DNA of 21,105 bases from a virus: positions 1-21,105 of IMG/VR virus record IMGVR_UViG_3300048784_000030. The stretch is one strand, 5' to 3'. A program made the translations under genes and the position numbers. Below the pieces are notes generated by a model. That model was given only the letters and a program-made list of their open reading frames with translations, had not been told where the DNA came from and did not search any database. Below are positions 2,521 through 21,105 of this stretch, piece by piece (the first letter of the stretch is position 1; every line of letters begins with the position of its first letter).

Positions 2521-3171
2521 TCTAAATTCTAAATATTGCTCTCTAGTGTTTGGAGTTGCTTTCCCATTGCCATAAATTTTATGAAACTCTCTATGACAAG
2601 GATCGCAGAGGGTGACTAGATTATTAACATCAAATCTTTGCTCAGGAAAATGTTTCCAGGAGTTAAGGTGATGAGCATTGAGTGTGCCACCCCTAATTGA
2701 GCATTTAAGACAAGTATAATCATCCCTTTCAAAGCATGTAATATGTAATTTAGCGCTCGTTAGTTTATTTCGCTCTACTTTACTAAGTTCAGTAGTAAAG
2801 TCATTAAAATCTTCTACCTTAATTCCTCTGTTAACACAACTCAACTTTACACGTTGTTCTAGTGTTAAATATCTACCCTTCATAGGCGCAGGTTTGCCTA
2901 ACTTTGCTTTTGACATTTTAGCTTTAGCTTCTGCTGTGTGTTTGTAGCCTTTTGATCCAGATGTTTTGCCAGTCTTGGCCTTTGACATCTTTTCTCTAGT
3001 CTCAGTAGACATGTTATAGTGACAACATTTTCTACACATAGCATGATTAATGGCATTGTCTTTTGTTAAATATCCTCTATCTAAACCACACTTATCGCAA
3101 TAAGTCCTATATAGGGTTCTATAGTGAGTTGAATCTATGTATTTCTTCTGAGTGTCATCAAGCTTTATCAT
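2515..3171 (-). CDS. NUMOD3/HNH homing endonuclease, 218 aa
   Basis: This is a free-standing homing endonuclease, a selfish enzyme that cuts a related phage genome at a defined site so that its own gene is copied in. Residues 25-49 hold two CxxC pairs (C25/C28 and C46/C49), a small zinc-finger-like unit. Residues 55-99 carry NUMOD3-type repeats (EKMSKAKTGKT.. and AKMSKAKLGKP..), which bind DNA in such enzymes. The HNH nuclease spans about 145-202, with zinc cysteines C154, C157, C189 and C192, the His-His pair H167/H168, Asn at N183/N184, and His at H193 and H197. All key residues are present, so it looks intact. It lies on the opposite strand between two tail-tube paralogs and is richer in A+T than they are (sampled 60-base lines 27-43% GC against about 47% in tube 1), consistent with recent arrival. 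It is very probably free-standing: no intron is apparent and the flanking tube genes are whole. Confidence 0.93.
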   Translation of the reverse strand: MIKLDDTQKKYIDSTHYRTLYRTYCDKCGLDRGYLTKDNAINHAMCRKCCHYNMSTETREKMSKAKTGKTSGSKGYKHTAEAKAKMSKAKLGKPAPMKGRYLTLEQRVKLSCVNRGIKVEDFNDFTTELSKVERNKLTSAKLHITCFERDDYTCLKCSIRGGTLNAHHLNSWKHFPEQRFDVNNLVTLCDPCHREFHKIYGNGKATPNTREQYLEFRK

Positions 3172-3204: not shown

Positions 3205-3819
3205 ATGTCGGATGTAAGGCCATTTTTTGTCACTGGTGACAAATTGCGTATTGTTTTGAACGGCAAGACGATAGCGTTTGCCACCGATTTATCTTGCTCC
3301 GTACAAGTATCCCACCAAACTCCTCACGTTCTAGGCATGTACGAGGGCGTCAGTGTTGAGCCATTAGCTTACAACGTATCTGGCAGCTTCAATCTCATTA
3401 GATATGTTCACAACGCCATCGCTAACATAGGTGGAACTCCGCCAAGCGGTGTCAGTCCAAGTGATGCCGGTAATGGAGTTGGCAACTGGGGTTCTGTTTG
3501 GGGTGGTGGAGCTCTAGGCAACCTGCAGCAGATTACCGGAGCTGTGAATCCTTTCGGCGGCTCTGACGGTAGAGCAAACGAAGCCTTAGACCCTAGCACG
3601 TATCAGACAGGCACGACCTTCGACCTTCTCGTGTACCAACACAATCCTAATGGAGATCCGCTGGGAGTTATCAGGATAAGAAGTGCGAGAATAAGTAAGG
3701 CAGACTTCAACGTCAACAAGAAGGGTCCTGGCCAAGATAGGTTCGACTTCGTAGCGCTCTATGTCGACGGCGACGCGTACCAGGCTAAACCTAGTGGTAC
3801 TGGTCAACAGAATTCCTAA
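3205..3819 (+). CDS. Tail tube protein paralog 2, 204 aa
   Basis: This is a clear paralog of the gene at 1858. The first 70 residues align in the same register, with TG at 10-11, Y46-E47, PLAYNVSGSFNLIRY at 53-67 against PVNYSVSGELSVVRY, and FDLLVYQ (139-145) against WDLVVYQ. The strand LGVIRIRSARIS (153-164) matches LGVIRISDCRF in paralog 1. The central ~65 residues (74-138) are a Gly/Pro/Asn-rich insertion containing VGNWGSVWGGGALGN, different from the linker of paralog 1. It is probably a tube, tube-initiator or tube-completion protein of the contractile tail. A good Shine-Dalgarno GGGAG (3191-3195) precedes the ATG by nine bases, and an extended -10 lies just upstream. Which of the three copies forms the bulk tube cannot be told from sequence. 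Confidence 0.8.
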   Translation: MSDVRPFFVTGDKLRIVLNGKTIAFATDLSCSVQVSHQTPHVLGMYEGVSVEPLAYNVSGSFNLIRYVHNAIANIGGTPPSGVSPSDAGNGVGNWGSVWGGGALGNLQQITGAVNPFGGSDGRANEALDPSTYQTGTTFDLLVYQHNPNGDPLGVIRIRSARISKADFNVNKKGPGQDRFDFVALYVDGDAYQAKPSGTGQQNS

Positions 3820-3829
3820 GAGATAGTTT

Positions 3830-4462
3830 ATGGCACCAACAAGTGGATTCGACACAACTCCAGGTTTTATAGAGAACACAGTTAACAATCTTGCTAGCAA
3901 CGTTGCTGGCATTGTCTCTACTAGACCAAATGCTAAGTTCATGTCTGGTGCGCGCTGCACCTTGAAGATCAACGGGCAACTCGTTGGGTTTGCTTTCGGC
4001 ATCAGCTGGAACATCAACACGCTAGTGACAGAGGTAAACACAATTGATGATTACTTGCCATATGAACTTGCGCCTCAACGCGTAACAGTAGAGGGTACCA
4101 TATCCGCTCTGCATATTCCTGGAACTAGTGCTAACACTCTCAGCTGGCAACCAAACGTCCTGTCGTTTCTATTTCAACCATACATCTCTATTGAAGCCAG
4201 AGATTCTGCCACAAATCAGATCATATTTGCTACAGATAAGGCTACTATAGTTACTCGCAGTGAGGAACTTAGAGTTGACCAACTATCTAATGTAACTCTT
4301 CGTTGGAGAGCTATTGGATACATTGACGAGCAGACTCCACAACCTCTTAATAACTATAATCAGCCTAGTGGTCCTAACACTATTCCGACTAGACAAACTA
4401 ATCCAATTACTAGTGCGATATCTGGTGCCGCTCAAACTATCAGCAGCGCGATCACCGGGTAA
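3830..4462 (+). CDS. Tail tube-like protein paralog 3, 210 aa
   Basis: This is the most diverged member of the triplet. It has a 29-residue N-terminal extension, after which residues 40-96 align without gaps to residues 11-67 of the other two: GARCTLKINGQLVGFAFGIS, the Y78-E79 pair and RVTVEGTISALHI. The Gly/Ser linker of the others is replaced by a shorter ordered segment (VLSFLFQPYISIEARD, 120-135). The final strands (ELRVDQLSNVTLRWRAIGYI) match the end of the fold. The C-terminal ~40 residues are Pro/Asn/Ser-rich and probably disordered. It starts 10 bases after paralog 2 with AAGAG (3818-3822) as Shine-Dalgarno, so the two are likely co-translated. A tube-terminator or tube-to-baseplate adaptor role is plausible, as single-layer rings of the tube fold occur at tube ends in other phages; this is inference. 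Confidence 0.75.
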   Translation: MAPTSGFDTTPGFIENTVNNLASNVAGIVSTRPNAKFMSGARCTLKINGQLVGFAFGISWNINTLVTEVNTIDDYLPYELAPQRVTVEGTISALHIPGTSANTLSWQPNVLSFLFQPYISIEARDSATNQIIFATDKATIVTRSEELRVDQLSNVTLRWRAIGYIDEQTPQPLNNYNQPSGPNTIPTRQTNPITSAISGAAQTISSAITG

Positions 4463-4490: not shown

Positions 4491-4877
4491 ATGGAACTAC
4501 CTAAGAACGAAGCAACTTTTGACGTAGACATGCTGGGTGATACCACGTTCAAGCAGTATCAGGGACAGTTTACGTGTCGCTGCATTCTCAACATTGGGCA
4601 AAAGCATTCCATGGAGCTTGAGAAGAGTAGACTCCTTGGAAGCTATGTAAATCCAACTGAAGATCTACAAGGATTGGCCATCATTTTCGCGAACCTAAGA
4701 GCTAAGATTATTGAAGCTCCAGAGTGGTGGAAGCAAAGCGCTGGTGGTACGACCATCAACGACGAGAATATCCTTGTTGAACTCTTTAAGCAACTTCAGA
4801 AGGCAGAGAAAGAATGGCGTCAGAAGGTCAAGGACCTGGCGAATCCCTCAGCGGACTCTCAGTTGCCGAATCAATAA
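4491..4877 (+). CDS. Tail assembly chaperone, first ORF (gpG-type position), 128 aa
   Basis: This small acidic soluble protein sits between the tube genes and the tape measure gene, the place held by the tail assembly chaperones (lambda gpG, P2 gpE). It starts with ELPKNEATFDVDMLGDTTFKQYQGQF, a beta segment, continues with a mixed core (SRLLGSYVNPTEDLQGLAIIFANL) and ends in a charged helix (LVELFKQLQKAEKEWRQKVKDL). Its last 64 bases overlap the next ORF, which is in the -1 frame, the classic geometry of the G/GT pair. The chaperones hold the tape measure protein in solution until the tube forms around it. No sequence motif is decisive for the family, so the call rests on position, size and overlap. 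The start is supported by AAGAGG and an extended -10 just upstream. Confidence 0.7.
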   Translation: MELPKNEATFDVDMLGDTTFKQYQGQFTCRCILNIGQKHSMELEKSRLLGSYVNPTEDLQGLAIIFANLRAKIIEAPEWWKQSAGGTTINDENILVELFKQLQKAEKEWRQKVKDLANPSADSQLPNQ

Positions 4878-5290
4878 GACAGATAGCAGCTAAAAACGCT
4901 AGAGCAAGTCTCGACAGCGAAGAGCAACTTCTACTATTCCTACAAAGCTGGTGGTCTCGCACTTATAATAGACCGCTGCTCGACCCTCTATTACTTTCAT
5001 ACACAATTGATCAACTCTTATATGAGTTCTACGACCGCGTTGAGCGCAGGGCAGCAGAAGAAGAGCGCGCCAAGGAAGACGAACTCGCCAAGGAAGATAA
5101 CAAGGAAAAGGCTGACCTTGACTGGGCCGACAAGATGGAGCAGGAAGAGCTTGAGATGAAGGCTAAGGCAACTGAAGATCCTACTAAAAATCCAGACAAT
5201 GTAAAATGGATGAAGGAACAGATGGACGCGCATAAGGCCCAATTTGGTGAAGATTTTGGCGAAGATTTAGAGGTCAACTTTGAAGAATAA
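4814..5290 (+). CDS. Tail assembly chaperone, second ORF (T-type), 158 aa
   Basis: This ORF overlaps the previous gene by 64 bases in the -1 frame. Residues 16-75 form a helical domain with a conserved look: VAESIRQIAAKNARA, EEQLLLFLQSWWSRTYNRP, LLDPLLLSYTIDQLLYEFYD. The rest is a long charged helix (78-120) with an internal tandem repeat (AKEDELAKED, coded by two copies of GCCAAGGAAGA near 5069 and 5087), and ends with a second tandem repeat, FGED-FGED (bases 5243-5266). It could be made alone from the ATG at 4814, which has AGAAGG (4798-4803) ten bases upstream, or as the extension of the first ORF by -1 frameshifting. The frame is open back to 4790, so a shift could only occur at 4790-4877; I find no standard slippery heptamer there. 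The two-ORF arrangement before the tape measure gene supports a chaperone role. Confidence 0.75.
   Translation: MASEGQGPGESLSGLSVAESIRQIAAKNARASLDSEEQLLLFLQSWWSRTYNRPLLDPLLLSYTIDQLLYEFYDRVERRAAEEERAKEDELAKEDNKEKADLDWADKMEQEELEMKAKATEDPTKNPDNVKWMKEQMDAHKAQFGEDFGEDLEVNFEE
5269..5282 (+). promoter_or_regulatory. RBS that fixes a TTG start
   Basis: AGAGG (5269-5273) lies six bases before TTG at 5280. An in-frame TAG at 5268-5270 rules out any earlier start, and the first in-frame ATG is not until about 5385, so TTG is the best start for the next gene. Confidence 0.65.
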
Positions 5291-8288: not shown

Positions 8289-10052
8289 ATGATCTTAAAT
8301 CAGAACACCAACTTTAAGCTTACAACTCCGCATGCCTGTGTCATCATATGGAATTATGATGACAGGTTAGGTGTTACTCCAACTACAACCGCAACCATAA
8401 ATACAGTGAACCAGGTCATACTGGATACCATCTCTTGCATGTCGATACATACTAGTAAGGGCAAGGGTTCTCCAGCTGGTTCTTTCACCGTAGAACTTGC
8501 CCCATGGAGAGATTGGGTCTCTCAGATTACCGCCGGAAGTTGGTGCACAATTCTAATGTCGAATCAACCCATAACACAGGCACAGCTTGCTAACGCAGAT
8601 CCAAGTTATGTCAAGATGATTGGCAAGATTGAATCTGTCAGAGTAGATGTCAATGTAAACGAAGAGGGCGCAAGACAGACTAGGTACATAGTCTCTGGAA
8701 CAGACTGGGGACATATATTTAATAACGTCTTGTACATAGATAATCTCATTGCTGCTGCTAGCGACCCAACTAATCAAGGGAACACCATTGCTATTGCCCT
8801 TCAAAAGCAGATGTTCGGTAATGGAAATGCCCCACAAAGTTTTAAAGTAGCAGATAATTTAGTAGCATTACTTGGTATCTTTGGCGCATCGTCAAGTGGA
8901 CTGGTTGAAGCTTCTAATGCTATCAACAGGCTAGATAAGTCTATATATGATTTTTTAATACCAACTCAGATGGCCCAGTATTTCAACTTCATAGACGGAG
9001 ATGGGAACATCAATCAGTCTACCACTCTCTCCGATTTGCTAACTCTACAAACAGGAAGATTGACTAGTTACAATAGCTATAGCGATACTAACGAGGCCTT
9101 TGGCTTCATAGATCCGTTCTCGCTGCAAGGAACTAACTCATTCTGGCAGATACTGATGGACAACAGCAATCCTGCCCTAAACGAGATGTACAACGAGATT
9201 GAGTGGGATCAAAGTAACCAAGGTACTGTGGGTCCGTCGTTGACCATATACAACAGGATCAAGCCGTTCTCATACTTAACAAATCCTCCTTCGAATGGGG
9301 CCGAGACATCTATTAGATCTCCTTTCACACTGCTGAAGACGCACATGATTGACAACATCAAGGTTGTTAGCGTAAGTGCAGGAACTAACTGGCGCGACAA
9401 GTACAACTTTGTAGAGGTTAGACCGCTATTTCAAGACTTCGACATATTAGCAGGTTGGACAGGACAAAAGTCTCAAGGTTCTGATCCTTTGGCCTTCAAC
9501 AGGGAAGGCTTCAGACCGATGATCGTTGGAACGAAGCAATTCCCTGTCGACCCAACCAATCCCTCTGGCACGTACGATGCAAACCTGTTGACGAGTTGGG
9601 TTGCTCTGTTAAAAGAGTGGTTCTTCGACACGCACAAGCTGCTGAACGGCACGATCGTCATGACCGGCGTTACAGAGTACATCGGCGTTGGTAACAACAT
9701 ACTGTTTGAGGTTGGATTAATAAGTCCAACCATGAACATTAATAACGCTGCCAATAACAGCATAAATACTAACTATATTCTTGCCCACGTAGAGAACGTA
9801 GATCACAGCTTTACAGTATCTCCTGATGGGGCAAGAAGCTACACAACCACTGTCCAGTTTGTGAGGGGCATAGTTGTCAATAAGAGCAACAATAACTTCA
9901 TCCCAGTGGGCAGTGGGTCGCTCGACGAGTTGGCATCTACGCTGCAGAACATTGAGTACAAGAACACCGTAAACACGTTCAGCACGTCCGACGGAATTAG
10001 TGATCCGACTCATCCTATTGATCCAGATCCACAGAAGCTGCGTGGAGACTAA
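8289..10052 (+). CDS. Baseplate hub protein, gp27/gpD-like, 587 aa
   Basis: The N-terminal part has the beta-barrel signature of gp27-type hub proteins. A strand pair (HACVIIWNYDDRL and ILDTISCMSIHTSKGKGSP) leads into GSFTVELAPWRDWVSQITAG (64-83), where the phrase 'SFTVELAP' followed by an aromatic loop and GSWCTILMS is typical of these barrels. Another strand pair follows (MIGKIESVRVDVNV with RQTRYIVSGTDWGHIFNN, 110-146), again as in hub proteins. The rest (150-587) is a large mixed region with further barrel strands (ILAHVENVDHSFTVSPDGAR). Hub trimers join the tube to the central spike, and the next gene, four bases downstream, encodes that spike. TATAAA at 8281-8286 lies two bases before the ATG and no clear Shine-Dalgarno is present. 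The assignment is based on pattern and synteny. Confidence 0.8.
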   Translation: MILNQNTNFKLTTPHACVIIWNYDDRLGVTPTTTATINTVNQVILDTISCMSIHTSKGKGSPAGSFTVELAPWRDWVSQITAGSWCTILMSNQPITQAQLANADPSYVKMIGKIESVRVDVNVNEEGARQTRYIVSGTDWGHIFNNVLYIDNLIAAASDPTNQGNTIAIALQKQMFGNGNAPQSFKVADNLVALLGIFGASSSGLVEASNAINRLDKSIYDFLIPTQMAQYFNFIDGDGNINQSTTLSDLLTLQTGRLTSYNSYSDTNEAFGFIDPFSLQGTNSFWQILMDNSNPALNEMYNEIEWDQSNQGTVGPSLTIYNRIKPFSYLTNPPSNGAETSIRSPFTLLKTHMIDNIKVVSVSAGTNWRDKYNFVEVRPLFQDFDILAGWTGQKSQGSDPLAFNREGFRPMIVGTKQFPVDPTNPSGTYDANLLTSWVALLKEWFFDTHKLLNGTIVMTGVTEYIGVGNNILFEVGLISPTMNINNAANNSINTNYILAHVENVDHSFTVSPDGARSYTTTVQFVRGIVVNKSNNNFIPVGSGSLDELASTLQNIEYKNTVNTFSTSDGISDPTHPIDPDPQKLRGD

Positions 10053-10055
10053 GAT

Positions 10056-10958
10056 ATGTCAGGCATAGTAAAGGACAGTTCTATCTGGGTAGATCCAGAC
10101 AACATGGCCGTAGTCAACAGACTAGACAGCATGATCAGGATAGGCATCGTGAAGGGCGCTTTCAACGACGCTGACACGGGCGAACTAAGATATTTAGTTG
10201 AGATCCAGAGCAACGCCAAGAAGATCAACATGAACTGCCGAATTATGAGAAGGTTCGGCGGCGTATATAACTATGAAGACTACATAAACCGCGGCTACAA
10301 GACCAACGACAGTCCAGACCCTGTCACTGGGTTCGATGCTAAGGCTGGAGACGCAGTTTTAGTGGGTCAATTTAACGGGCAAGGTAGAGAGGGCGTAATA
10401 TTAGGTGGTCTCACCCACGCAGCTCGCGAAACCACCATTCAAGCAAGTGATGGCCCACAGTACGATTCCGAGTTTAATGGAATTCACACCAACATCAATG
10501 CCACAGGAGAGTGGACACTAACCTTTAAGGGACAACCAACCAATCTTAGTAATTTAGACAACAATCCGTCTGGAGCCATTCCACCGCCAACATATGACAC
10601 GACAGTGGGAGGTAGCTTCATGAAGTTTGACGCTACCGGCGGATGGACTATAGGCGACAATGCTACAAGCAATCCCCAGTCAATATTCGTAGATAAGGCA
10701 AATAATGCAATTACTACGTTAGCCGGCACCTACAAGATAACCGCCGCTAAGTCCGCAACTATTGATGCCCCTCAAGTAGCTATAGGTCACGGTGCTATTG
10801 AACTTCTTGATCAACTTACTCAGCTTATAGATGCCATTGGTAAATTAATACCCATATCTCCAGTAGGTAACTGTACTGAACTAAGTTCAGTGCCAACATG
10901 GCAAGGCGTAACACAGATTAAGGCAAAGATTAACCAAATCAAGGGCAGCCTAAGTTAA
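10056..10958 (+). CDS. Baseplate spike protein with OB fold (gp5/gpV-like), 300 aa
   Basis: Residues 27-120 have the OB-fold pattern of gpV/gp5/VgrG-type spikes: IRIGIVKGAFNDADTGELRY, strands containing Val-Glu-Ile-Gln, and a closing GDAVLVGQFNGQGREGVILG (98-117). Residues 130-235 are beta-rich with Gly and Thr (NGIHTNINATGEWTLTF, GGSFMKFDATGGWTIG), suiting a needle or extended beta-helix region. The final 55 residues (IELLDQLTQLIDAIGKLIPI, then TWQGVTQIKAKINQIKGSL) are helical and resemble the C-terminal tail seen in many phage spike proteins. No lysozyme domain is present, unlike T4 gp5. The spike sits at the tip and pierces the outer membrane or wall. The gene begins four bases after the hub stop with GGAG (10044-10047) at spacing 8, so both are probably co-translated. 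Confidence 0.83.
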   Translation: MSGIVKDSSIWVDPDNMAVVNRLDSMIRIGIVKGAFNDADTGELRYLVEIQSNAKKINMNCRIMRRFGGVYNYEDYINRGYKTNDSPDPVTGFDAKAGDAVLVGQFNGQGREGVILGGLTHAARETTIQASDGPQYDSEFNGIHTNINATGEWTLTFKGQPTNLSNLDNNPSGAIPPPTYDTTVGGSFMKFDATGGWTIGDNATSNPQSIFVDKANNAITTLAGTYKITAAKSATIDAPQVAIGHGAIELLDQLTQLIDAIGKLIPISPVGNCTELSSVPTWQGVTQIKAKINQIKGSLS

Positions 10959-10967
10959 TTGCTTAAA

Positions 10968-10982
10968 TGATACAATCTATCT
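10968..10982 (+). promoter_or_regulatory. Extended -10 placed for a leaderless start
   Basis: TGATACAAT (10968-10976) has its -10 hexamer (10971-10976) six bases before the ATG at 10983. With the standard seven-base step from the -10 end, transcription would begin on the A of the ATG. No Shine-Dalgarno lies in the 5-13 bases upstream. Confidence 0.42.
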
Positions 10983-11981
10983 ATGGGTATCTTCAGCTCC
11001 TTAGCACAAACATTTAGCACCCCGAATCCTTCACAGAAGCCTCGTGGGCCATATGGTGATGACGCCGCTGCGGACACAGATCTTAAGCTTAACAACATCT
11101 ACACCCCAGATCCAAACAATTGGTACACGGCTAAGCCTTACGGTTTTAGATTCACGTCTAGGAAAACTGGCAGACAAGCTACCATGTTCATGCCTATCAA
11201 TCCTAGTAACCTTAATATTTCTACTAGCTTTGCAACCAACGTAATTCCAACCTTGTATGGAACAGTAGAAGAACACTCAGATGTTAGGTACTTCGATATC
11301 GTCATAGAGGGAACCACAGGGATGGTTCCTAAGTTTGTAAAACCAGGATTTAGCGGGAATGTAGTATCGACCAGTGAAACAAGTGATGCCACCGATGTGA
11401 CATACGCTGCCCTTCTTCAGCCAGGCAGAGCAGCGTATCCAATTGCTAACGCGGCTGCCTTAGGTGGTTTCTTCTCAAACACAGTAGCTCAGATCAGCAA
11501 TGTTCTAAATCAAGCTGGTAAGGCCGTAAGCGCTATCACTGGTCAGGCCAATCAACCTGTTGAAACCGGAGTCTACAACAATCAAACAGGTTACTTAGCA
11601 TTTCACAACCTGTACAGATTCCTACTTAAGTATAAAAAAGATGCTGCCGGAGTTGACAGTCATAATGCCCGCATTGTTCATCCTCTTACGTTCTTCAACT
11701 ACAAAGACGGCAACGAATACGACGTAGCCATTAAAAACTTCACGTTGAGAAGGTCAGCAGAGAATCCAATGCTGTACTACTACTCAATCACTATGAGGGG
11801 TTACAACATTAGGTCGTGCGGTGGTTTGAAAGCGCTTGAAGATCTCAATCAGAGGCTCAATGATTTAGGTTTGAATGGAGTTCAATCGTCGAGCTTACTA
11901 TCCACTGTCTCAGGTATCTCTAATAATGCTAAGGCTGTTGTAGGATCTGCAGTCAATGGCGTAAACTTATTCGGTAGGTAA
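10983..11981 (+). CDS. Baseplate hub/Dit-like protein, 332 aa
   Basis: The N-terminal 40 residues look flexible (Pro/Asp-rich). A beta domain then opens with PYGFRFTSRKTGRQATMFMP (52-71) and INPSNLNISTSFATNVIPTL (72-91), followed by YFDIVIEGTTGMVPKF (103-118). The phrase 'P.NP....I..S...T.....G', followed by a strand ending in 'IEGTTG', recurs in distal-tail and XkdP-type baseplate proteins. Residues about 135-200 form an Ala-rich insertion. The second half (YRFLLKYKKDA, then YDVAIKNFTLRRSAENPMLY and YYSITMRGYNI, ~210-277) completes the barrel. The C-terminal tail is Ser/Asn-rich. It lies between spike and gp25-like genes, so it is probably a ring protein around the hub. The start has no Shine-Dalgarno but a -10 box six bases upstream. 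Exact family is uncertain; the role as a baseplate component is fairly safe. Confidence 0.68.
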   Translation: MGIFSSLAQTFSTPNPSQKPRGPYGDDAAADTDLKLNNIYTPDPNNWYTAKPYGFRFTSRKTGRQATMFMPINPSNLNISTSFATNVIPTLYGTVEEHSDVRYFDIVIEGTTGMVPKFVKPGFSGNVVSTSETSDATDVTYAALLQPGRAAYPIANAAALGGFFSNTVAQISNVLNQAGKAVSAITGQANQPVETGVYNNQTGYLAFHNLYRFLLKYKKDAAGVDSHNARIVHPLTFFNYKDGNEYDVAIKNFTLRRSAENPMLYYYSITMRGYNIRSCGGLKALEDLNQRLNDLGLNGVQSSSLLSTVSGISNNAKAVVGSAVNGVNLFGR

Positions 11982-11982
11982 C

Positions 11983-13578
11983 ATGGCAACTCTTACTCAA
12001 GCTTATCAAAGTATTGCCAATGTCAATCTCTGGTTTAAACTTCAAAATGGCACACCGCTTGTCTTGACAGATGTGCCCTCTATCATTCCGCTAAGATGGA
12101 CATACTTCAGTCAAAACTGGAACATAATCTTGCCAGTGTTGCAAGCTCTTGTCCCTGGGTACCAGTTTTCTGATCTGTTTGCTCAACAGCTAATCGATTT
12201 TACTGCATTCGTAGAAGTTCAGAGAAACAACGCTTCTATTATTAACCCGCTATCGAACGGCAACACGCTCTACAAGTTTTATACGGTATTTGATAACATA
12301 CCCATCAAGTCTATCAACTTAACAACGCAAGAGCAGACAATCCTAACAAACGCTACAACAGTAGTTTCTCAGTATAATAGAAACGACTTCGTAACTTTGC
12401 AAAACAACATAACCTCATACAGAGATGCGCAAGCTGATACTCTAGGACTGACTGATCCTACTTATAACTCTACGTTCAATAGGAATCCCATAGCTGCCCA
12501 AACTGTTGCAGCAGTACAGGACATAGAGTACTTAGAGACGCTGCAAGCTTCTATCCAAACGATTGACTTCATTCTAGCGAACCTATTCGCTGTTGACACG
12601 GCGGTAGATCCTTTTGCTCTAGCCCGTGCAAACGCCAACAACCCAGACATCAACATAGGTCAGTATTCATCTGGCACTCTCGTTAGGTTCCAATACGGAG
12701 ACGACCTAGAATCTTTGGCTTTCAGGTACCTGGGCGATCCAAACAAGTGGATAGATATTGCCCTTGCCAACGGTCTTCAGCCACCGTACATCGATGAGAT
12801 CGGTCAGACGGTGTTTCTAGAGGCTAACGGTAGCGGAAATCAAATCAACATAGCAGCGACAGATCTTAACGGCAATGATAATAGCGCGAAGTTCTATGTT
12901 AACCAAACTATCTTCTTGCAGTCTACAACATTGCCATTTCCGAACCAAGTCAACATCTCAAGTATAAACGTAGCCGCTTCTAATGGTGACTTAGTTTTAA
13001 CTGTTACTGGACCAAGAGATTTAAGTAAGTACACTACTGCTGACAACGCCTATGTGCTTGTGTACGCGCCTGATACAGTAAACAGCAATGTGTTTATCTT
13101 GATACCATCCACTGATCCACTGCCAAACCAGAGGCAGGACACTATTCCTTGGTTCTTGGCCCAGAGCGCCGCGGACGAAATAAGGATGGGCATAGACCTG
13201 CTCATCGGTCCAGACGATGACCTCGTATTTACTCCTAACCATGACCTCAGTCTAAGTTACAGTCTACAGAATGCATCTCAAGCGATGAAGTTGAAGATAG
13301 TGACAGAGTTGGGAGAATTAAGATATCATCAGGGATTTGGTTTGATAAGCGTAATAGGTAATAAAAATAACAACATAAGCGCAGTGCAGACTGCTATCAC
13401 CAGTTCACTTGTTAATCAGGTCAGCCAGGACAGCAGGTTTGACAGGATAGAGTCGCTGAGTGTAGGCTATGCAACTGCTGGTAATTCTGCCTCCGCCGTG
13501 AATATCCAGATGACTGTTAGACTTGCTGGCGGTGGCGGACAGGTCATCCCAATTAGCTTTAGCGTTAAGTATAGTTAA
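11983..13578 (+). CDS. Fusion of LysM-like and gp25-like (sheath initiator) domains, 531 aa
   Basis: This gene starts one base after the previous stop. Residues 1-225 are mainly helical and unrecognised, with a possible coiled coil at 118-205. Residues 232-280 form a LysM-type unit (TLVRFQYGDDLESLAFRYLG, then DPNKWIDIALANGLQPP...), the peptidoglycan-binding or assembly fold seen in baseplate proteins such as gp53 and XkdP. A beta insertion (285-385) follows. Residues about 402-531 match the gp25 family: GIDLLIGPDDDLVF, LQNASQAMKLKIVTELGELR, YHQGFGLISVIG, then SQDSRFDRIESLSVGY. The Glu-Leu-Arg-Tyr-His stretch (EL.YH..FG), with the downstream 'QD.RF..I' helix, is the family hallmark. gp25 nucleates sheath polymerisation on the baseplate and is normally 110-140 residues alone; here it is the C-terminal quarter of a larger protein. 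TAGGT shortly upstream may serve as ribosome binding site. Confidence 0.82.
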   Translation: MATLTQAYQSIANVNLWFKLQNGTPLVLTDVPSIIPLRWTYFSQNWNIILPVLQALVPGYQFSDLFAQQLIDFTAFVEVQRNNASIINPLSNGNTLYKFYTVFDNIPIKSINLTTQEQTILTNATTVVSQYNRNDFVTLQNNITSYRDAQADTLGLTDPTYNSTFNRNPIAAQTVAAVQDIEYLETLQASIQTIDFILANLFAVDTAVDPFALARANANNPDINIGQYSSGTLVRFQYGDDLESLAFRYLGDPNKWIDIALANGLQPPYIDEIGQTVFLEANGSGNQINIAATDLNGNDNSAKFYVNQTIFLQSTTLPFPNQVNISSINVAASNGDLVLTVTGPRDLSKYTTADNAYVLVYAPDTVNSNVFILIPSTDPLPNQRQDTIPWFLAQSAADEIRMGIDLLIGPDDDLVFTPNHDLSLSYSLQNASQAMKLKIVTELGELRYHQGFGLISVIGNKNNNISAVQTAITSSLVNQVSQDSRFDRIESLSVGYATAGNSASAVNIQMTVRLAGGGGQVIPISFSVKYS

Positions 13579-13605: not shown

Positions 13606-16600
13606 ATGGCTTCACAATCAAACATTCAGATCCAGAGTTTTAATCAGCTCCTAGGTGCCATGCTGCGCACCATCATAGCTAACACCCCTCTGAACGACAT
13701 TAATCAGGGGTCAGTGCTTCTCACTCTGCTTGAAGCTGCTGCCGCAAATGACTTTGAAAACTCTACCGCTGCCTTAAGTCTGCTCAATTTACTTAACATA
13801 GCCACTGTTTCTGGTAGTGACTTAGATAACAGAGCAGCTGATTATGGTTTGACTCGTTATGCTGCTACTCAAGCATCTGGCAATGTGAGTATTTTCAATA
13901 CTAGCATCAAGCTTCAAAGCACTAACTTGTACATCCTTAAGCCACCACCAATTGCCAGTCAAACTGTTATATACGTTAACAATACTGCCGGTTGGGCATC
14001 TTCTGGAACATTGTACATAGGCAGAGGAACTATTTCGTTTGAAGGACCTATTCCTTATAGCTCGATTGACGTATTTCCAACCTTCTCTCAGATCAATCTT
14101 TCATCTGCCTTGCAGAACAACCATCTCGCGTCAGATACCGTTATAAACTCCCAGGGTCAGCCGGATCGCGTTATTGCGGCAGGAACGGTCGTCAGCATAC
14201 CTGCGAACAATCAGAACCCTCAGATCAATTATACGACCCTCAGGGATGCGACTCTGCCATCTGGAAACACAGAGGTTGACAACATCCCTGTCATAGCACA
14301 GGTAGCTGGCTCTATTGGTAACGCACCTATCAATACCGTAGTTCAGTTTCAGACATCTCCATTCCCTGGAGCTGCTGTCTCTAACACGTCGGCCCTATCA
14401 GGTGGAGCGGACGTAGAAACTGACCAAGACCTAAGGGACAGAATTAATCAGTATCCTAATACTCTAGCCAGAGGTACTGAAGCTGCCATTTTAGCTGCTG
14501 TCATCAATGTCTCTGACTCTACTGACAACAAGCAAGTAGCCTCTGCCATCATCCAAGAACCACCAGCCGTAGACGAGCCATCTATCCTCTACATCGACGA
14601 CGGCACGGGCTTTCAACCTTCTTTTGCAGGTCAGAGTGTAGATAATCTACTCATCAACGCCTCAGGAAAAGAAGAGTTCTTGCAGTTGGCCAACTACCCA
14701 GTGGCAAGACCACAGGTTATCAATACGGGTGTTGGTCCTTTCGCCCTCATGGACAACAGCTTTCTCACTGTGGTGGTAGATGGCGTCTCAGAGACGATCG
14801 TGTTCCATACGTCAGATTTCGTGAACATCTCTACGGCCCAGGTTGCGGAGATAGTTGTAGCGATTAATAATCAAGCTAAAAACTTCAGCGCAAGGTTGAC
14901 AAACAACTCTGCTAACATACTTTTGTATCCTCAGGCCTTCGACGCCGAGATAATCCAGGTATTGCCGCTTCAATCTACGGATGATCCAACCCTATATGCG
15001 AACACGCAGTTTGAGTTTCCTACCTCCCAGTTCTCGTTTATTGCCCTGTATCAGAACAGTGTAAGACTAAGAGAGAAAACTCTCACCGCTCAAGTAGAGA
15101 CTACTGGATTTGCCTCGTGGAATATCAGTGGTCCTGGCGATCTTGCCATCTCTGTTGACAACACGCCTACGCAGGATAGAACGTTTAGCCTAGCCAACTT
15201 CCCAGGTATGTCATCGTTTGCATTGCTAACGCTCGCTGATTGGGTTACGGCGTTCAATCAGCAGTTTGCCGGTATCACTGCAGTTGCCACTTCTACTCAG
15301 ACCATGCAGATTAATTCTAATCAGAGTGGAACAAACTCTGCCTTGAATATTACTGGTGGGACGCTACTTGCCAACTTGTTTCCTACGCAGGCAACGAGCT
15401 CAGTTGGACAGGCCGGTCAGTTTATCCTCAACAGGCAGACAGGCAACTTGCAGATGCTCACCACCATTAACCCTGGTGACAACATTACTGCTGGCAGTCC
15501 TGATACAAGAGGCTTTGCAGTTTCTGCTGCAACTTCAAGCGGAACGTATAACCTATCAACTGATAGCAGTGGACGTCCAGCCGAGATGATAGTTGTTGCA
15601 GATTCAACTTACTGCAACCAAGTATCAGTTAGTGCCACAATTGGCTCTACCGTTACTATTAGCAATCCTAGTGGCAACATAATGAGAATTATGTCAAGTT
15701 CGCTAGCGGCATTTCAGAACATCTTGCCTGGCAACTTCATCTTCATACCAGTGCGCACTTCAGCATGGCTAGCTACCGGTAACACCGGCCTATTTAAGGT
15801 TGTAGACAAGGGTGCTCAGATTACTGCAGGCACAGACACCTACATAGATGTATTGAATCCAAGTACCAGCATTACTCCGCAGGTAGTATCAGTGGCAGAT
15901 GCTGCCGATTTGCAGGCGTTCTCTACAGATGGATATCCGCAGCTTTGGCTCCCAGGTCGTCTTGGAACTTCAATAGCAAATCCATCTAGTGCTGCAATCA
16001 ACGACATTGTAACTTCTATAAACACAGATTTAATCAACGTTCTAGCGAGTGTATACCAATCTGACGCAATTAAGGTAACTTCTACAACAGAGTTGAACGG
16101 CAGCATCGCAATACCTATAGTTATTGGTAATGCAACTGCCCTATTCACCTCAACTACTGCTGCCCAGTTTGGCAACCCACCGCTAGTGGCAAGCATCGTA
16201 TCTAGTAAGAGTCTACTAACATACTTTAAGATTGCTCCACCTAGCAACGTAAATACCTTCCTGAACAGGCAGGTATTTGTAGACTCTAAGGGTGCTCTTA
16301 CCGCAAATGCCATCCCTGATGTTCCTCCATACTCAGGTCCTTACAGCGAAGTGTTGGAATCTACTGGAAAGCTGAATACTACCTACGTCGATTACGACGA
16401 CTACATCTCGTTAACCAGAGGAAATAACAGGGATCAACTTAGAACTATTGCTGCCTTTAATCCAGTTGGGTATCCAACCGACACTGTTGGCACACAAGAA
16501 AATCTAGCTAGAACAAGTCTTAACCACGTGGTAGGAGATGAGTTTGAGGTCGTTAAGGGTTTACAACTTTCTAGTTTTGATACACTTGTTACTGTAATTG

Positions 16601-19600
16601 ACCAAAATCCTCAAAACAACACTATCAATGTCAGCATGGCTAGAGCGGGTCAAGTTAATTCAGGCAATGGGTCTGAACCAGGATATGCAGGTGGAGACAC
16701 AATTGTAGGAACCTTTATTCCAACCAGTACAGAATTTTCTGCTACTGATTTTGACAATCAACCAGGTATTGACTTTGGAAATATCAACGTTTGGGGTACT
16801 ACGTTAAACGATACAGATTTTAATGATTATGCAGTTTGGATGATGGCTAGAAATTGGTATGCTTCCGGCGGCGTAGGATCTGGTCAAGGTGCAATGATTG
16901 TAAGAGCAGATGATTATGGTCCAAACGGAAACTTCATGCGCTTCAATTTACAGTACCCTACAATACCTAGTCAGGCAGCAACCACAGGGTGGGTCAATAC
17001 ACCATCATTTACTACCTTTACGTATTATTTTGGTTCTGGTGCACCTAGATCGACTTCTATTACTGGAGGTACTATTACTATTAAAGGTCCATACCCAGAT
17101 AAAACTACTAATTTTCCTGATGGAACTGTGTCTACGGGTAATTATTGGGACTACACATTTTCTATAGCGGACCTATCAACTGTCATGGTCGGAGACATAT
17201 TGAGTATTGCTCCTGCATCTGGCATATCTGTCCCTAATCAGGGTCAGTTTAGCATTCAGAGCATATCAGGAGAAACCGCGCGCGTTTATAACCCAAATGG
17301 TTCATCTGCGCTGTCGCCTGAACCTATTTCAAATCCTACGGGTGTAAACATATTTCCGCTTAATGGAAATACCGTAGCGGCTATCTCTGCGGTTATTAAT
17401 AGTAGCTTACTTATGTCAGCTACTCCAGTTGGATCTAGCAGTTTAACTATTTCTCTAGCTACACAAGAAGAAACTTCGCCCACTCTTGCATTTGACTATA
17501 CACCTGGTAGTAACTATGTAAGCATGTTTGATGGCGTAAATTGGATTAAGACATTTGAAAATTCTAACCCTAATTTTACGTTAAAAACCCCAATGGTTCT
17601 TCAGGGTGCTAATCCAGCTATTTACTCTATGGATACTGCACCAAATAATGACGGTATCTCAGTCGGTGAATTGTTCAAACTCATACCAATTACGGTTCAA
17701 AATTTATACAATCAACTAACTCAAGCACCTATATCACAATTACCTATTGTAGCCATAGTTGAGATTACCGATGACAGAAAAAACATCCAGATTGAGTCTA
17801 AAAGCCTTGGATCTAATGGTGCTGTTCAGATAGTCGGTGGCACCGGCAATGAGTCGGAAGCGTTCTTGCAATCTGAATCTGAAGTAGCAACAGACGGAAG
17901 TGGAAGTTACCTTGAAATTCAAGTTCCAGCTTTTCCAGACACATTTAACACTGGAGACACAGTACTTCTAACAAATCCAGTGGGCGTACAAAGATTTAAT
18001 CGTTTATTGCTTTCTGATACGATGAACGTAATAAACACTAGCATAGGTGTATTTGACTACACGTACAATGCTAAAGACACTGGCATTAATTCTGCAAATT
18101 CATTCACGATTGTAGATTCCGGTTCACTTCAAACTCCACCAGTTCCACCAGGATTTGTGTGGAGATGGACAGTGGATGCCCCAGCGACTGGCGTTAATTT
18201 AATAGACATAAGGCCAGGCGACCTACTATATGCTTTCGGATCTTTAACAGGATGGAGTCAGAACAATCAGGCAAGACCAGCAGGAGACACTTTGGTTTCA
18301 GGTTTTCCAATTATTGGAGTAAATGTTGGAGCCAATTGGGTAGATGTGGTTAATCCTTTCGGTGTAGCAATGGCATCCACTTCCGTTGGCACTGGAAAAA
18401 TTCAAATATGCCCAAGTCCAAGCATACAGTGGCTTTTAACGCATGCTGGATATATTCCAGCTGTGAGTCTGTCAGCTACTTCTAACACTGTAACTGTTAC
18501 AACAGAGGGAGCGCATTTCTTAAGTTCTGGTAACAGCGTAACACTTCGTGACAGTTTCAATGTGCCAGATGGTACTTATGGACCTATAACCGTTACTGGA
18601 CCTAACACTTTTACTTTTGCCATAGTCATTGCCAATTTCACAGAAAATTTGACATTTGCCTCTGTCATCAATAACGCACTTACGCCAACTAGATATAGAT
18701 TGCAAAGTTTGGGTTTTAATGGACTAGTAAGAATGTCGGCTGTAAGTGGACAGTCACCTAATTTTGTAAATAGTGGTGTGGCCGTGGATGATTATATATC
18801 TATCAGCGGAAATACCTTCAGCTCAAACAATAACGGCTTATTTAGAGTTCTCGCTGTGGATAACTCCTCTGTGATATTCATTAACAAGAATGCTACAGAT
18901 CAACTTAATACCGTTATGTCCATGAACAACCAAAACATAGAGGCCGTATGGACCAGTGGCACAAACACTGTAACTGGAGTCACTGGCACGTTCAAGTACG
19001 TTACTGTAGGAACTTGGGTTAAGAAGGTATCTGATCCTGATACGTCCTATTTACAGGTAGAAAGTTTAAATAACCTTAATCCTGCATTAGCTACCTCTAT
19101 TACGATCGGTGGCGGGTATCCAGGAACTACGGGTAGCGCTCTTGGAACTGTGTACGATGAAACTAGCGGCTATGACAGTGGTGTTAACCTTCAAAACGTA
19201 AACGACATACAGGTACTAGAAGGTGATTCAGTAATAGCTGGAGACACCCTATTTGTTCAAAATATTGTTAACTCTGTTTGGTTCAATGCTCAAAATGTAG
19301 GTAGCTTTCCTATATCTCAATATGGTACAGAACCTTCAACATACTTACCATTCGTTAGGGTGAGCAATAGTATTGGAATTGCACAATCTGGCGTTGAGAT
19401 GTCCGTTAATCCAGGCGGATTGTACGTGATTGAGAGTTTAGCTAATAAGTTTAGCACTATTAGAGAAATTACTTATGCTGTTATCGATGGTACAGATAGC
19501 ACTCTAAGAGATGTGTACATTACGCCTTACAGCAGGAGTTACAAATTTAACTCAGCCAACAACTCAACAATTACCCACCTTGGAAAGATTGGCTATAGCA

Positions 19601-20022
19601 ATATTACGGAAATAGGTATAGACGGATACATCTATTACACCGGACTACTTCAAAAGGTTCAACGAATCGTTGACGGATTTGAGCCAGACATAACAGATTT
19701 CCCAGGACAACGAGGGTTGGGAACCTCAGTGGAGACATTACCTCCTCTACCATTCCAGGTTAACTTATCACTCAATATTGTTACCAACGTTGGTGTAAAC
19801 TTAGGCGACGTGTCGAACAACATCAAGTCAGTAATCATCAACTATGTTGAGGGTCTTGGCGTTGGACAATCTATCGTCCTGTCGCAGATCATTGCGGATG
19901 TTCAGGCAGTAACCGGCGTAGCTTCAGTGGTGTTTACCATACCAGCACCAAGTACGGCAAGTATAGCCTTGAACAGCAATGAGAAGGCAATTATAAGTTC
20001 TAACAATATTTCTATCGCTTAA
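13606..20022 (+). CDS. Giant gpJ-type baseplate wedge protein with repeat modules, 2138 aa
   Basis: Residues 1-95 are the gpJ/gp6 N-terminus: FNQLLGAMLRTIIANTPLND, then INQGSVLLTLLEAAAA, NIATVSGSDLDNRAADYGL and TRYAATQASGNVSIF. Residues 225-320 are the J core: NIPVIAQVAGSIGNAPINTV, LSGGADVETDQDLRDRI (GG-D-E-D-LR-R signature) and LARGTEAAILAAVINVSD. The last ~90 residues (from FQVNLSLNIVTNVG) form the usual C-terminal domain, including IKSVIINYVEGLGVGQSIVL and SQIIADVQAVTGVASV. Classic J proteins are about 300-650 residues; here ~1700 residues of repeated beta modules separate core and C-terminus. Among them is an AWMMAR/RADDYGPNGNFMRF segment near 16825-16968. J-type proteins form the baseplate wedges that open on triggering. 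ATG 13606 is chosen over TTG 13600. The gene starts 27 bases after the previous stop and ends three bases before the next ATG. Confidence 0.92.
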   Translation: MASQSNIQIQSFNQLLGAMLRTIIANTPLNDINQGSVLLTLLEAAAANDFENSTAALSLLNLLNIATVSGSDLDNRAADYGLTRYAATQASGNVSIFNTSIKLQSTNLYILKPPPIASQTVIYVNNTAGWASSGTLYIGRGTISFEGPIPYSSIDVFPTFSQINLSSALQNNHLASDTVINSQGQPDRVIAAGTVVSIPANNQNPQINYTTLRDATLPSGNTEVDNIPVIAQVAGSIGNAPINTVVQFQTSPFPGAAVSNTSALSGGADVETDQDLRDRINQYPNTLARGTEAAILAAVINVSDSTDNKQVASAIIQEPPAVDEPSILYIDDGTGFQPSFAGQSVDNLLINASGKEEFLQLANYPVARPQVINTGVGPFALMDNSFLTVVVDGVSETIVFHTSDFVNISTAQVAEIVVAINNQAKNFSARLTNNSANILLYPQAFDAEIIQVLPLQSTDDPTLYANTQFEFPTSQFSFIALYQNSVRLREKTLTAQVETTGFASWNISGPGDLAISVDNTPTQDRTFSLANFPGMSSFALLTLADWVTAFNQQFAGITAVATSTQTMQINSNQSGTNSALNITGGTLLANLFPTQATSSVGQAGQFILNRQTGNLQMLTTINPGDNITAGSPDTRGFAVSAATSSGTYNLSTDSSGRPAEMIVVADSTYCNQVSVSATIGSTVTISNPSGNIMRIMSSSLAAFQNILPGNFIFIPVRTSAWLATGNTGLFKVVDKGAQITAGTDTYIDVLNPSTSITPQVVSVADAADLQAFSTDGYPQLWLPGRLGTSIANPSSAAINDIVTSINTDLINVLASVYQSDAIKVTSTTELNGSIAIPIVIGNATALFTSTTAAQFGNPPLVASIVSSKSLLTYFKIAPPSNVNTFLNRQVFVDSKGALTANAIPDVPPYSGPYSEVLESTGKLNTTYVDYDDYISLTRGNNRDQLRTIAAFNPVGYPTDTVGTQENLARTSLNHVVGDEFEVVKGLQLSSFDTLVTVIDQNPQNNTINVSMARAGQVNSGNGSEPGYAGGDTIVGTFIPTSTEFSATDFDNQPGIDFGNINVWGTTLNDTDFNDYAVWMMARNWYASGGVGSGQGAMIVRADDYGPNGNFMRFNLQYPTIPSQAATTGWVNTPSFTTFTYYFGSGAPRSTSITGGTITIKGPYPDKTTNFPDGTVSTGNYWDYTFSIADLSTVMVGDILSIAPASGISVPNQGQFSIQSISGETARVYNPNGSSALSPEPISNPTGVNIFPLNGNTVAAISAVINSSLLMSATPVGSSSLTISLATQEETSPTLAFDYTPGSNYVSMFDGVNWIKTFENSNPNFTLKTPMVLQGANPAIYSMDTAPNNDGISVGELFKLIPITVQNLYNQLTQAPISQLPIVAIVEITDDRKNIQIESKSLGSNGAVQIVGGTGNESEAFLQSESEVATDGSGSYLEIQVPAFPDTFNTGDTVLLTNPVGVQRFNRLLLSDTMNVINTSIGVFDYTYNAKDTGINSANSFTIVDSGSLQTPPVPPGFVWRWTVDAPATGVNLIDIRPGDLLYAFGSLTGWSQNNQARPAGDTLVSGFPIIGVNVGANWVDVVNPFGVAMASTSVGTGKIQICPSPSIQWLLTHAGYIPAVSLSATSNTVTVTTEGAHFLSSGNSVTLRDSFNVPDGTYGPITVTGPNTFTFAIVIANFTENLTFASVINNALTPTRYRLQSLGFNGLVRMSAVSGQSPNFVNSGVAVDDYISISGNTFSSNNNGLFRVLAVDNSSVIFINKNATDQLNTVMSMNNQNIEAVWTSGTNTVTGVTGTFKYVTVGTWVKKVSDPDTSYLQVESLNNLNPALATSITIGGGYPGTTGSALGTVYDETSGYDSGVNLQNVNDIQVLEGDSVIAGDTLFVQNIVNSVWFNAQNVGSFPISQYGTEPSTYLPFVRVSNSIGIAQSGVEMSVNPGGLYVIESLANKFSTIREITYAVIDGTDSTLRDVYITPYSRSYKFNSANNSTITHLGKIGYSNITEIGIDGYIYYTGLLQKVQRIVDGFEPDITDFPGQRGLGTSVETLPPLPFQVNLSLNIVTNVGVNLGDVSNNIKSVIINYVEGLGVGQSIVLSQIIADVQAVTGVASVVFTIPAPSTASIALNSNEKAIISSNNISIA
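14734..14970 (+). repeat. FHTSDF/AIN module, copy in gpJ
   Basis: The translated segment runs GPFALMDNSFLTVVVDG, then TIVFHTSDFVNISTAQVAEI and VVAINNQA, and ends in a beta pair. It matches a segment of the next protein (20398-20673) almost residue for residue: PF.LMD, VDG, FHTSDF..IS, A.EI..AIN.QA. Related but weaker copies lie further on in gpJ near 15180-15360 (WVTAFNQQFAGITAVAT), 15979-16146, 17362-17493 and 17659-17840. Confidence 0.75.
15718..19376 (+). repeat. Array of diverged 'GD-x-L...G-x-F-x-V...V-x-N' beta modules in gpJ
   Basis: At least six segments share a pattern of Gly-Asp/Asn plus hydrophobic strand, a loop with Asn-x-Gly-x-Phe, then a strand ending in Asn-Pro or Asn-x-x-Gly. 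They are near 15718-15864 (LPGNFIFIPV, GLFKVVD, DVLNPS), 17184-17312 (VGDILSIAPA, GQFSIQSIS, RVYNPNG), 17946-18030 (TGDTVLLTNP), 18208-18366 (RPGDLLYAFG, VDVVNPFG), 18779-18897 (VDDYISISG, GLFRVLAV, IFINKNA) and 19231-19376 (AGDTLFVQN, GSFPIS, VRVSNS). A further copy is in the next gene (20789-20896: IGDVIISLLPG, GYFTITNI). The copies are diverged at DNA level. Confidence 0.6.
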
Positions 20023-20025: not shown

Positions 20026-21105
20026 ATGGACAACATCACTAAGATAGATCAGCTTCACGACCTGATGCCGCAACACTACAACTCACGCGTCAACCCGAAC
20101 TGGAACGCTTTGATTGCAGCCCTTGGCCAATCTGACCAGAATGTTGCTGAGCTTATAGTCGCCATTAAGAATCAGTTCTTTATTAAGACTGCTTCTGCTC
20201 CATACCTAGATAACTTAGCAGCCAATGATGGAGTAGCTAGACCAGCTCAAGTAGGCATGAACGATGCCACATTCAAAAAGTACATTCCTATCTTGGCTTA
20301 CACCCCAAAGCAAGTTAAGTTCATCATCGACGAGCTTTTGAATATATTCTTTGCCAAGGAGACCACGACTGCTTTTGTTGTGTCTGGGCAGGCACAACCT
20401 TTCGTGCTGATGGACGACTGGGAACTAGAGTACACAGTGGATGGGATCTATGATGAACTCATCTACTTCCATACTTCAGACTTTACAGATATCAGCGCAG
20501 CAACCGCAGTAGAGATAGCTGCAGCCATCAATAGACAGGCCTTGCACAGTTCTGCTGAGAGCTACTTTGACAATATCTCTAAGGGTTACTACGTAAAGAT
20601 ATTCACTAACACTATTGGCTCTAAAGGATCAATACAACTTGTAGGCGGTAGAGCAGATATTCCACTTCAGTTTAACGGTTTTATATCTGGCGCAGGCACA
20701 GGGACGAATACGGTGTGGACCGTTACCAAGATTGGCCAGATGGTAACCTATCAATTTGTGGGCGGTGAGAATCCTAATATCAACCTGTTGCAAATTGGGG
20801 ACGTCATTATATCGCTCCTACCTGGCAATGCAGGTTATTTTACGATTACAAATATTAACTTAAGTACAGCAAGTTTCACGTTTGAGAACCTGTTTGGGAC
20901 GCCTGGAACTTACACGCAGACAGATGCAACGCAGACTAAATTTTTTACTCCAACTAAGAATGTTGTATACACTCAGGACAGCAGGGCTTTGACATGGCAG
21001 GTTATGCCTGGTGAAGCTATTGTAGAGTTACCAGCAACTCCCCCAGTTGTTAAGAGATCCTTAATAGGTTCAGCTCACATAAACGGCTCTGAAAGCGTGA
21101 TGACT
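20026..21105 (+). CDS. gpI-like baseplate protein with shared modules (3' end outside window)
   Basis: This gene starts three bases after gpJ (TAA, CAT, ATG) with no Shine-Dalgarno, so translation is probably coupled; it stays open to the right edge (360 codons visible). Residues 1-110 resemble P2 gpI-type tail proteins: IDQLHDLMPQHYNSRVNPNW, a helical hairpin (NVAELIVAIKNQFFIKTASA), YLDNLAANDGVARPAQVG, and FKKYIPILAYTPKQVKFIID. gpI binds gpJ in the wedge, and gene order J then I is standard. From about residue 125 it carries the same FHTSDF/AIN module as gpJ (PFVLMDDWELEY, YFHTSDFTDISAATAVEI, AAAINRQA), then a GDVIISLLPG/GYFTITNI module near residues 255-290. Normal gpI proteins are near 200 residues, so this one is already extended. 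The gpI assignment is by pattern and order. Confidence 0.75.
   Translation, partial: MDNITKIDQLHDLMPQHYNSRVNPNWNALIAALGQSDQNVAELIVAIKNQFFIKTASAPYLDNLAANDGVARPAQVGMNDATFKKYIPILAYTPKQVKFIIDELLNIFFAKETTTAFVVSGQAQPFVLMDDWELEYTVDGIYDELIYFHTSDFTDISAATAVEIAAAINRQALHSSAESYFDNISKGYYVKIFTNTIGSKGSIQLVGGRADIPLQFNGFISGAGTGTNTVWTVTKIGQMVTYQFVGGENPNINLLQIGDVIISLLPGNAGYFTITNINLSTASFTFENLFGTPGTYTQTDATQTKFFTPTKNVVYTQDSRALTWQVMPGEAIVELPATPPVVKRSLIGSAHINGSESVMT
20398..20673 (+). repeat. FHTSDF/AIN module, copy in gpI-like gene
   Basis: The segment begins PFVLMDDWELEYTVDG, continues ELIYFHTSDFTDIS and VEIAAAINRQA, and ends with a strand plus loop (FTNTIGSKGSIQLVGG). It pairs with 14734-14970 in gpJ; the end also resembles ESKSLGSNGAVQIVGG of the gpJ copy near 17659-17840. 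DNA identity is partial (for example TTCCATAC-T-TCAGA against TTCCATAC-G-TCAGA), which points to an old duplication. Confidence 0.75.

Follow-up and report, generated by a model that had tools for sequence, protein, structure and literature searches.

The question raised by this locus is why a baseplate wedge protein should be about six times the usual size of its type, and what its additional residues do. The window, which is the whole stretch of DNA analysed here (21,105 bases) and the entire viral record IMGVR_UViG_3300048784_000030, contains a giant open frame at 13606–20022 of the + strand (ATG at 13606, stop at 20020–20022) that encodes 2138 amino acids (aa). Pfam Baseplate_J (PF04865) matches the product at 5.6e-23 in two stretches, residues 179–290 and one near the C-terminus, and PHROG 6, 'baseplate wedge subunit', matches it at 1.5e-37. 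In the predicted structure, residues 49–336 superpose on solved J wedges (8kea_d, Z 15.2; 9gb2_A, Z 14.8; phi812 9euf_I, Z 13.3) and also align to the Mu, diffocin and T4 gp6 wedges, with Z scores in the range of 12–15. Residues 2007–2138 superpose on the C-terminal parts of J proteins (9euf_I, Z 11.4; pyocin R2 5ces_A, Z 10.3). As the two segments match parts of the same J proteins, they make up one J core, split by ~1670 residues. In the alignment with phi812 ORF62, the match of the N-terminal half runs to about residue 228 and that of the C-terminal half sets in at about residue 200, which places the insertion mid-chain in an ordinary J.

The predicted structure thus confirms a J-type (T4 gp6 / P2 gpJ / Afp11 type) baseplate wedge whose core is split by an arm. 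The N-terminal core half comprises residues 1–336 (13606–14613), the arm residues 337–2006 (14614–19623) and the C-terminal core half residues 2007–2138 plus the stop codon (19624–20022), all on the + strand. A preliminary description of this DNA had proposed a gpJ-type wedge enlarged by about 1700 residues of modules between standard gpJ ends; the profile matches, split core and domain chain described below bear this out, with ~1670 residues measured. Ordinary J and T4 gp6-type wedges (phi812 ORF62, 9euf; phiCD508 gp65, 9g8s/9gb2; Mu; pyocin R2, 5ces and 6u5b; A-1(L) gp31, 8kea) resemble the window protein in both core halves and in operon position, but their chains are mostly about 290–490 aa long (about 650 aa in T4 gp6), whereas window J carries its ~1670 extra residues in the middle of the core.

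Window J occupies the operon position of a J wedge, adjoining a gp25/gp53-like gene upstream and a gpI-like gene downstream. The upstream ORF, 11983–13578, matches PHROG 975 (baseplate protein) and PHROG 120 (baseplate wedge), with a sub-threshold LysM match and a gp25-like C-terminus. The order of the contractile-tail genes is sheath end, three tube-like proteins, tape measure, hub/spike proteins, a tube-initiator-like protein, the LysM/gp25-like protein, J and the gpI-like protein, several of these roles being assigned from gene order and weak profile matches. The gpI-like gene (20026–21105, + strand; PHROG 1160/4056) is truncated at the window end, with 360 aa seen, and separate fibre genes are present downstream of J.

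Several side observations concern the rest of the operon. A homing-endonuclease gene with NUMOD3 (2.6e-13) and HNH (4.5e-5) matches lies on the opposite strand at 2515–3171, between two tail-tube-like genes. The three tube-like proteins (1858–2460, 3205–3819 and 3830–4462) are consecutive and similar in length; two match PHROG 3776 and one also PHROG 985, and they may be tandem tail-tube paralogues. Directly before the tape-measure gene, ORFs 4491–4877 and 4814–5290 overlap in different frames. Frameshifted tail assembly chaperones are usually encoded at this position, and a quick look at the two ORFs revealed no obvious slippery site. The tube-initiator-like and gp53/gp25-like ORFs of the window (10983–13578) look fused, by eye, into one 806-aa protein in Myxococcus phage Mx1 (L004 9359–11779), where a block of opposite-strand genes separates this protein from J.

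The arm was modelled with AlphaFold2 in two pieces, with 53–55 relatives each. The model of residues 960–2138 has a pLDDT of 88.7 and a pTM of 0.76; that of residues 1–1140 has a pLDDT of 79.8 and a pTM of 0.38, which leaves the domain layout of the N-terminal half uncertain. In both models the arm is a chain of beta-rich domains with no single core fold, so the modules are not absorbed as one ordinary domain. BLASTP of window J against itself returned the trivial match only, and the repeats were therefore tested profile against profile: a 20-member family profile was compared with itself in 100-column windows, with 220 column-shuffled searches as the null, the maximum score of which was 26.6. 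Repeat signal is present above this null. The preliminary description had counted at least five AIN units and six GD units. Five GD units are supported, matching one another at about 40–52 (residues 690–755, 1190–1233, 1510–1584, 1703–1764 and 1876–1930), but a sixth is not. Two to three AIN units score above the null, whereas the rest are consistent with the models and unproven.

The units that bear names in the arm lie as follows. AIN domain 1 (residues 365–478; 14698–15039) is a flagellin-like decoration domain by its predicted structure, residues 367–477 aligning to Vibrio cholerae flagellin 9n8h (Z 10.1, 2.6 Å over 93 residues). AIN domain 2 (residues 491–604; 15076–15417) aligns to phage XM1 7kh1_A6 (Z 11.1, 2.1 Å over 103 residues) and also to the Pa193 and E217 sheath proteins and FliD D2/D3 (Z about 8–9; 6kty, Z 9.0). 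In the profile comparison, residues 369–439 of AIN1 match residues 495–569 of AIN2 at 36.0. By the models, the AIN domains are similar to decoration domains of flagellin, FliD and sheath proteins. A fifth AIN-like unit (residues 1355–1425; 17668–17880) also exceeds the null, residues 1391–1430 matching residues 564–603 of AIN2 at 30.5. Two weak AIN-like units, near residues 794–838 and 1252–1269, are not above the shuffled null taken alone, and the models show a strand-helix-strand pattern at both. The third unit (residues 780–850; 15943–16155) is in register with AIN1 (794–838 against 409–454) and has a helix and strands modelled; the fourth (residues 1240–1300; 17323–17505) has a modelled helix, 1257–1264, between strands. 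GD units 1 to 5 are placed at residues 690–755 (15673–15870), 1190–1233 (17173–17304), 1526–1590 (18181–18375), 1700–1768 (18703–18909) and 1866–1935 (19201–19410). Pfam and PHROG scans of individual AIN and GD units gave weak sub-threshold matches only (Flagellin_D3, 0.057; E1_FCCH, 0.006).

Between GD units 3 and 4 lies a beta-barrel of E1-FCCH/endosialidase type (residues 1615–1692; 18448–18681). Its predicted structure superposes on the UBA1/UBA6 FCCH half-domain (7pvn, Z 10.4, 2.1 Å over 74 residues) and on the endosialidases of phi92 (4hiz, Z 9.8) and K1F, with Z scores of 8.6–9.8 for the latter group; Pfam E1_FCCH matches at 0.006, below the cut-off. Among close relatives, identity is 80% in the J core and 59–76% in the arm, the barrel being the least conserved named arm domain at 59%. 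The arm is thus moderately more variable than the core, and not hypervariable like a typical fibre tip. AIN and GD sequences extend beyond J: the gpI-like protein contains an AIN domain (about 20377–20715) which, when 20353–20730 is compared with the AIN1 region of J (14698–14985), shows 50% identity across 60 aa, and a GD-like stretch was recognised by reading at about 20779–20895. Since the gpI-like AIN domain is closer to AIN1 than AIN1 is to AIN2, the unit appears to have been copied between neighbouring genes.

Mx1 is the only deposited phage with a full-length J homologue. This 'baseplate protein J-like protein' (WNM70274.1, in OR576727) has 1925 aa, is colinear with window J and is 29% identical to it over the first ~830 residues; it differs in carrying one ~117-aa insert at the position of residue 1233 and in being without about 92 aa after GD unit 4. 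A scan of viral contigs with window J alone as query gave no match, but the pair with Mx1 used as a profile worked: the family profile returned 127 matches in IMG/VR, of which 80 were kept. Two further relatives come from MAG bins that carry the labels Cyclobacteriaceae and Cytophagales; binning is weak evidence of host, and Bacteroidota are on this basis no more than suspected hosts of the window clade. Complete J proteins of the family range from 1880 to 3881 aa; L023, a distant relative, is far shorter at 634 aa. In all close relatives, J is at least as long as in the window. We thus rejected the idea that window J is an enlarged member of its clade, as it is among the smallest there and is nested among insert-bearing relatives. 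In one 165,836-base record (L084), J lies in two ORFs, 9998–12550 and 12583–21612 (850 and 3009 aa), and is near the 3881-aa single-ORF protein of L058; the split could be a frameshift, a sequencing error or a real division.

Relatives carry inserts at fixed points of the arm. When 61 non-redundant relatives were aligned to window J, 59 had an insert at residue 1233 (17302–17307), a slot that is empty in the window, and the inserts form a ladder with steps of ~120 aa (~128/~245/375): 117–142 aa in 17 cases, 242–255 aa in 34, 375 aa, 453–466 aa in five, 579 aa, and one of 70 aa. A second slot, at residue 1525 (18178–18183), is likewise empty in the window and filled in 28 relatives, mostly by 127–148 aa, otherwise by 219–220 or 1633 aa. 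The insert unit is a module of ~107 aa, as defined by an HMM from two-module inserts, and the same HMM finds 0 to 7 copies per J; the module also occurs in some gpI-like and fibre ORFs. No sequence relation between it and the AIN units of the window was detected (hhalign probability 0.1%), and we therefore treat the two as separate repeats without asserting identity. Searches for the module in deposited phages, and for arm DNA in plasmids, gave no match.

Four indel sites coincide with the ends of GD units, an equivalent position in four homologous units: slot 1233 (GD unit 2), Kelch propellers at 741/754 in L019 and L020 (GD unit 1), an L034 insert at 1589/1597 (GD unit 3) and, directly after GD unit 4, an indel at 1769 where a distant clade is without 92–96 aa; this coincidence was spotted post hoc, and the gaps are placed to within several residues at best. 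We read the arm as a chassis whose fixed insertion slots lie at the ends of GD units and at a few further points. In a tree of shared columns, the window falls inside a clade whose other members carry 242–461 aa at slot 1233, and L029 and L030, also without an insert there, branch elsewhere. With the window nested among insert-bearing relatives, loss is the simplest reading, and the empty slot probably arose in this way, as judged from the tree; it lies within an intact frame.

Alongside the modules, the arms of relatives carry domains of adhesion type. PF11999 (ice-binding-like) occupies slot 1233 in 5 of the 20 scanned members, with E values down to 2.2e-36; in L005 J it covers residues 1367–1553 at 118.8 bits, against a cut-off of 28.7, and profile positions 1–205 of 208. 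Kelch propellers occur in two of the same 20 (E down to 6.7e-20), the 1633-aa insert of L058 contains nine FG-GAP_2 repeats (3.3e-105) among modules, and L016 J has a KIB1-4-type propeller (1.4e-6). Some inserts at slot 1233 thus hold PF11999 or a propeller, and in other relatives Kelch or FG-GAP propellers sit at different points of the arm. The Kelch propeller of Mx1 is located in the gene next to J. A Pfam scan found none of the PF11999, Kelch, FG-GAP_2 and KIB1-4 binding domains in window J, unlike in its relatives, and a search of deposited phages for the PF11999 cassette gave no match.

PF11999 cassettes do not track the J framework. The copy in L008 J is 66% identical to that of L009, against a framework identity of 57/47%, and 60–64% identical to those of L005, L006 and L012, against 72–75% for the framework; it is closer still, at 71%, to the copy in the L008 fibre gene. 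Among 35 relatives with the fibre gene in view, fibre PF11999 was present in 4/4 with PF11999 in J and in 0/31 without it (Fisher p 1.9e-5, uncorrected for kinship), so these phages appear, from their sequences, to carry the domain in both wedge and fibre or in neither. Together, the L008 identities and this co-occurrence indicate that the cassette moves between wedge and fibre. Besides the J copy, two to three tandem PF11999-like stretches were seen in the fibre genes of L005 (19266–24170) and L009 (18333–25199). PF11999 was also seen in small stand-alone ORFs (about 350–580 aa) without J or fibre similarity in L112, L114, L115, L117 and L124–L131, which could encode free ice-binding-like proteins.

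Parts of this organisation have precedents. Evolved Dit and Tal of siphophages are structural tail proteins with exchangeable carbohydrate-binding (CBM) insertions; they are distal tail proteins of siphophages, far smaller than window J and with other folds. Another precedent is Vp4 Gp119, a baseplate wedge 3 protein with CBM folds. It decorates host cells, whereas Deep-Blue Gp177, a homologue without CBMs, fails to do so (PMC11406892). Here a wedge is enlarged (831 against 341 aa) by binding domains that a sister phage lacks; Gp119 is the third wedge protein rather than J and has two CBMs only, and the accessible part of the report describes no slot system (PMC11406892). A recognised binding domain inside a wedge, of the Gp119 type, is present in relatives of window J and not in window J itself. 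Cis11 of the Anabaena tCIS (7b5h chain AH, 1227 residues) is a J-type wedge with three extra domains (PMC8894136). Together with the smaller cases Afp11/Pvc11 and PlPVC1 (9qgl), it shares with window J the insertion of large domains between the J core halves; this group has 887–1227 aa, against 1880–3881 aa in the window family, and the accessible part of the Cis11 report describes no copy-number ladder and no Kelch, FG-GAP or PF11999 cassettes (PMC8894136).

Taken together, these data are best explained by wedge-borne arms with exchangeable surface-binding cassettes, a reading to which we give a probability of slightly below 0.6. The core is split, the arm is divided into domains, and the ladder, the cassettes and their exchange are seen in the relatives. 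In this explanation, the arm would be a chassis of serial beta domains (AIN, GD units and the FCCH-type barrel) whose slots take spacer modules of ~120 aa, in 0 to 7 copies, and cassettes (PF11999; Kelch, FG-GAP and KIB-like beta-propellers). The arms would project outwards in the assembled baseplate and, with their cassettes, touch the host surface in a secondary contact, probably one directed at glycans; primary recognition would fall to the separate fibre genes downstream. Window J would be a stripped version, its slots empty. That the cassettes bind is best supported, by analogy, by the kind of domain they are, by the fact that the fibre gene has them too, and by the Gp119 precedent. The preliminary description had suggested that six or twelve such chains per baseplate would form large arms and may act in receptor contact or fibre docking; receptor contact agrees with the adhesion-type domains in relatives and with the finding of PF11999 in J only together with fibre PF11999; but window J has no cassettes, contact is something we infer, and since separate fibre genes exist, receptor recognition does not require the arm. 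Without cassettes, the window arm could be scaffold alone. Our best guess at a binding element within it is the FCCH-type barrel, a candidate because its modelled fold, on which the guess rests, is shared with phage endosialidases.

The arms could instead form a cage or collar around the central spike or needle, or a scaffold of the wedge ring, with no direct role in host binding and with modules that tune its size. We consider this unlikely, though it is the strongest competitor. Of the three extra domains of Cis11, one forms a hexagonal cage around the spike, another braces Cis12 and the third contacts a fibre-like protein (PMC8894136), so a J-type wedge with a cage-forming extra domain exists. 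Both core halves of window J align with 7b5h_AH (Z 9.4 and 7.8), and among the matches listed they alone do so, absence from that list being uninformative for the cage domain. The arm domains are also well conserved, and the ~120-aa steps look like spacers. A pure cage, however, leaves unexplained why unrelated lectin- or adhesin-like folds sit at the slots and recur in the fibre gene. Less probable again is an arm that serves mainly as a fibre-docking platform, in which AIN and GD units bind the gpI-like and fibre proteins and the cassettes are neutral or accessory. The same domain types in J, gpI-like and fibre proteins could give matching interfaces, and the Cis11 extension contacts the fibre-like Cis13 (PMC8894136); but module exchange explains the shared domain types equally well, and relatives without cassettes keep the fibre gene. 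Finally, although the window is a metagenomic contig and repeats are prone to misassembly, we rejected an assembly or annotation artefact (gene fusion or misassembled repeats) as highly improbable, as J reads through as a single open frame here and in over 60 independent relatives, the complete Mx1 genome among them, divergence between the five GD units is too great for a collapse, and the empty slot lies in an intact frame.

Within the preferred reading of wedge-borne arms with exchangeable cassettes, a bolder and more tentative picture is possible, which we favour somewhat less than its negation. In a whole family of large myophages, the J wedge would serve as a rack: each virion would bear roughly a dozen giant arms, and the slots at homologous GD-unit ends would gain and lose spacer modules and adhesion cassettes (ice-binding-like, Kelch, FG-GAP) and exchange them with that phage's own fibre gene. 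This would make the baseplate ring a second organ of receptor binding, one that is rapidly reconfigured, and the PF11999 genes that viromes list as host-cryoprotection genes would be tail adhesins, in these phages at least.

Taken singly, the J wedge, large insertions into it and binding domains in a wedge are already known. In the open-access literature, we found no report of giant J wedges or of PF11999 inside baseplate proteins, nor a description of this J size, of the slot-and-ladder organisation or of the sharing of PF11999 between wedge and fibre. The findings bear on annotation practice, as PF11999 hits in viral genomes have been taken for auxiliary metabolic genes with a role in shielding the host against freezing (PMC11515562). 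Contrary to this reading, PF11999 in this family is built into the wedge and the tail-fibre gene; as the domain sits in what are, by sequence, virion proteins, membership in PF11999 would imply nothing about ice here.

The family is widespread and almost unstudied, with 127 IMG/VR matches, genomes of up to ~177 kb and one cultured member, Mx1, which makes the question of binding directly testable. Wedge proteins are usually taught as the conserved scaffold of the baseplate and fibres as its variable, host-binding part. In this family the scaffold also carries a variable, exchangeable part, so host-range predictions that consider only the fibre genes would overlook half of the binding repertoire. 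That relatives swap modules and sticky domains into fixed slots of the arm suggests a role for the wedge itself in gripping the host.
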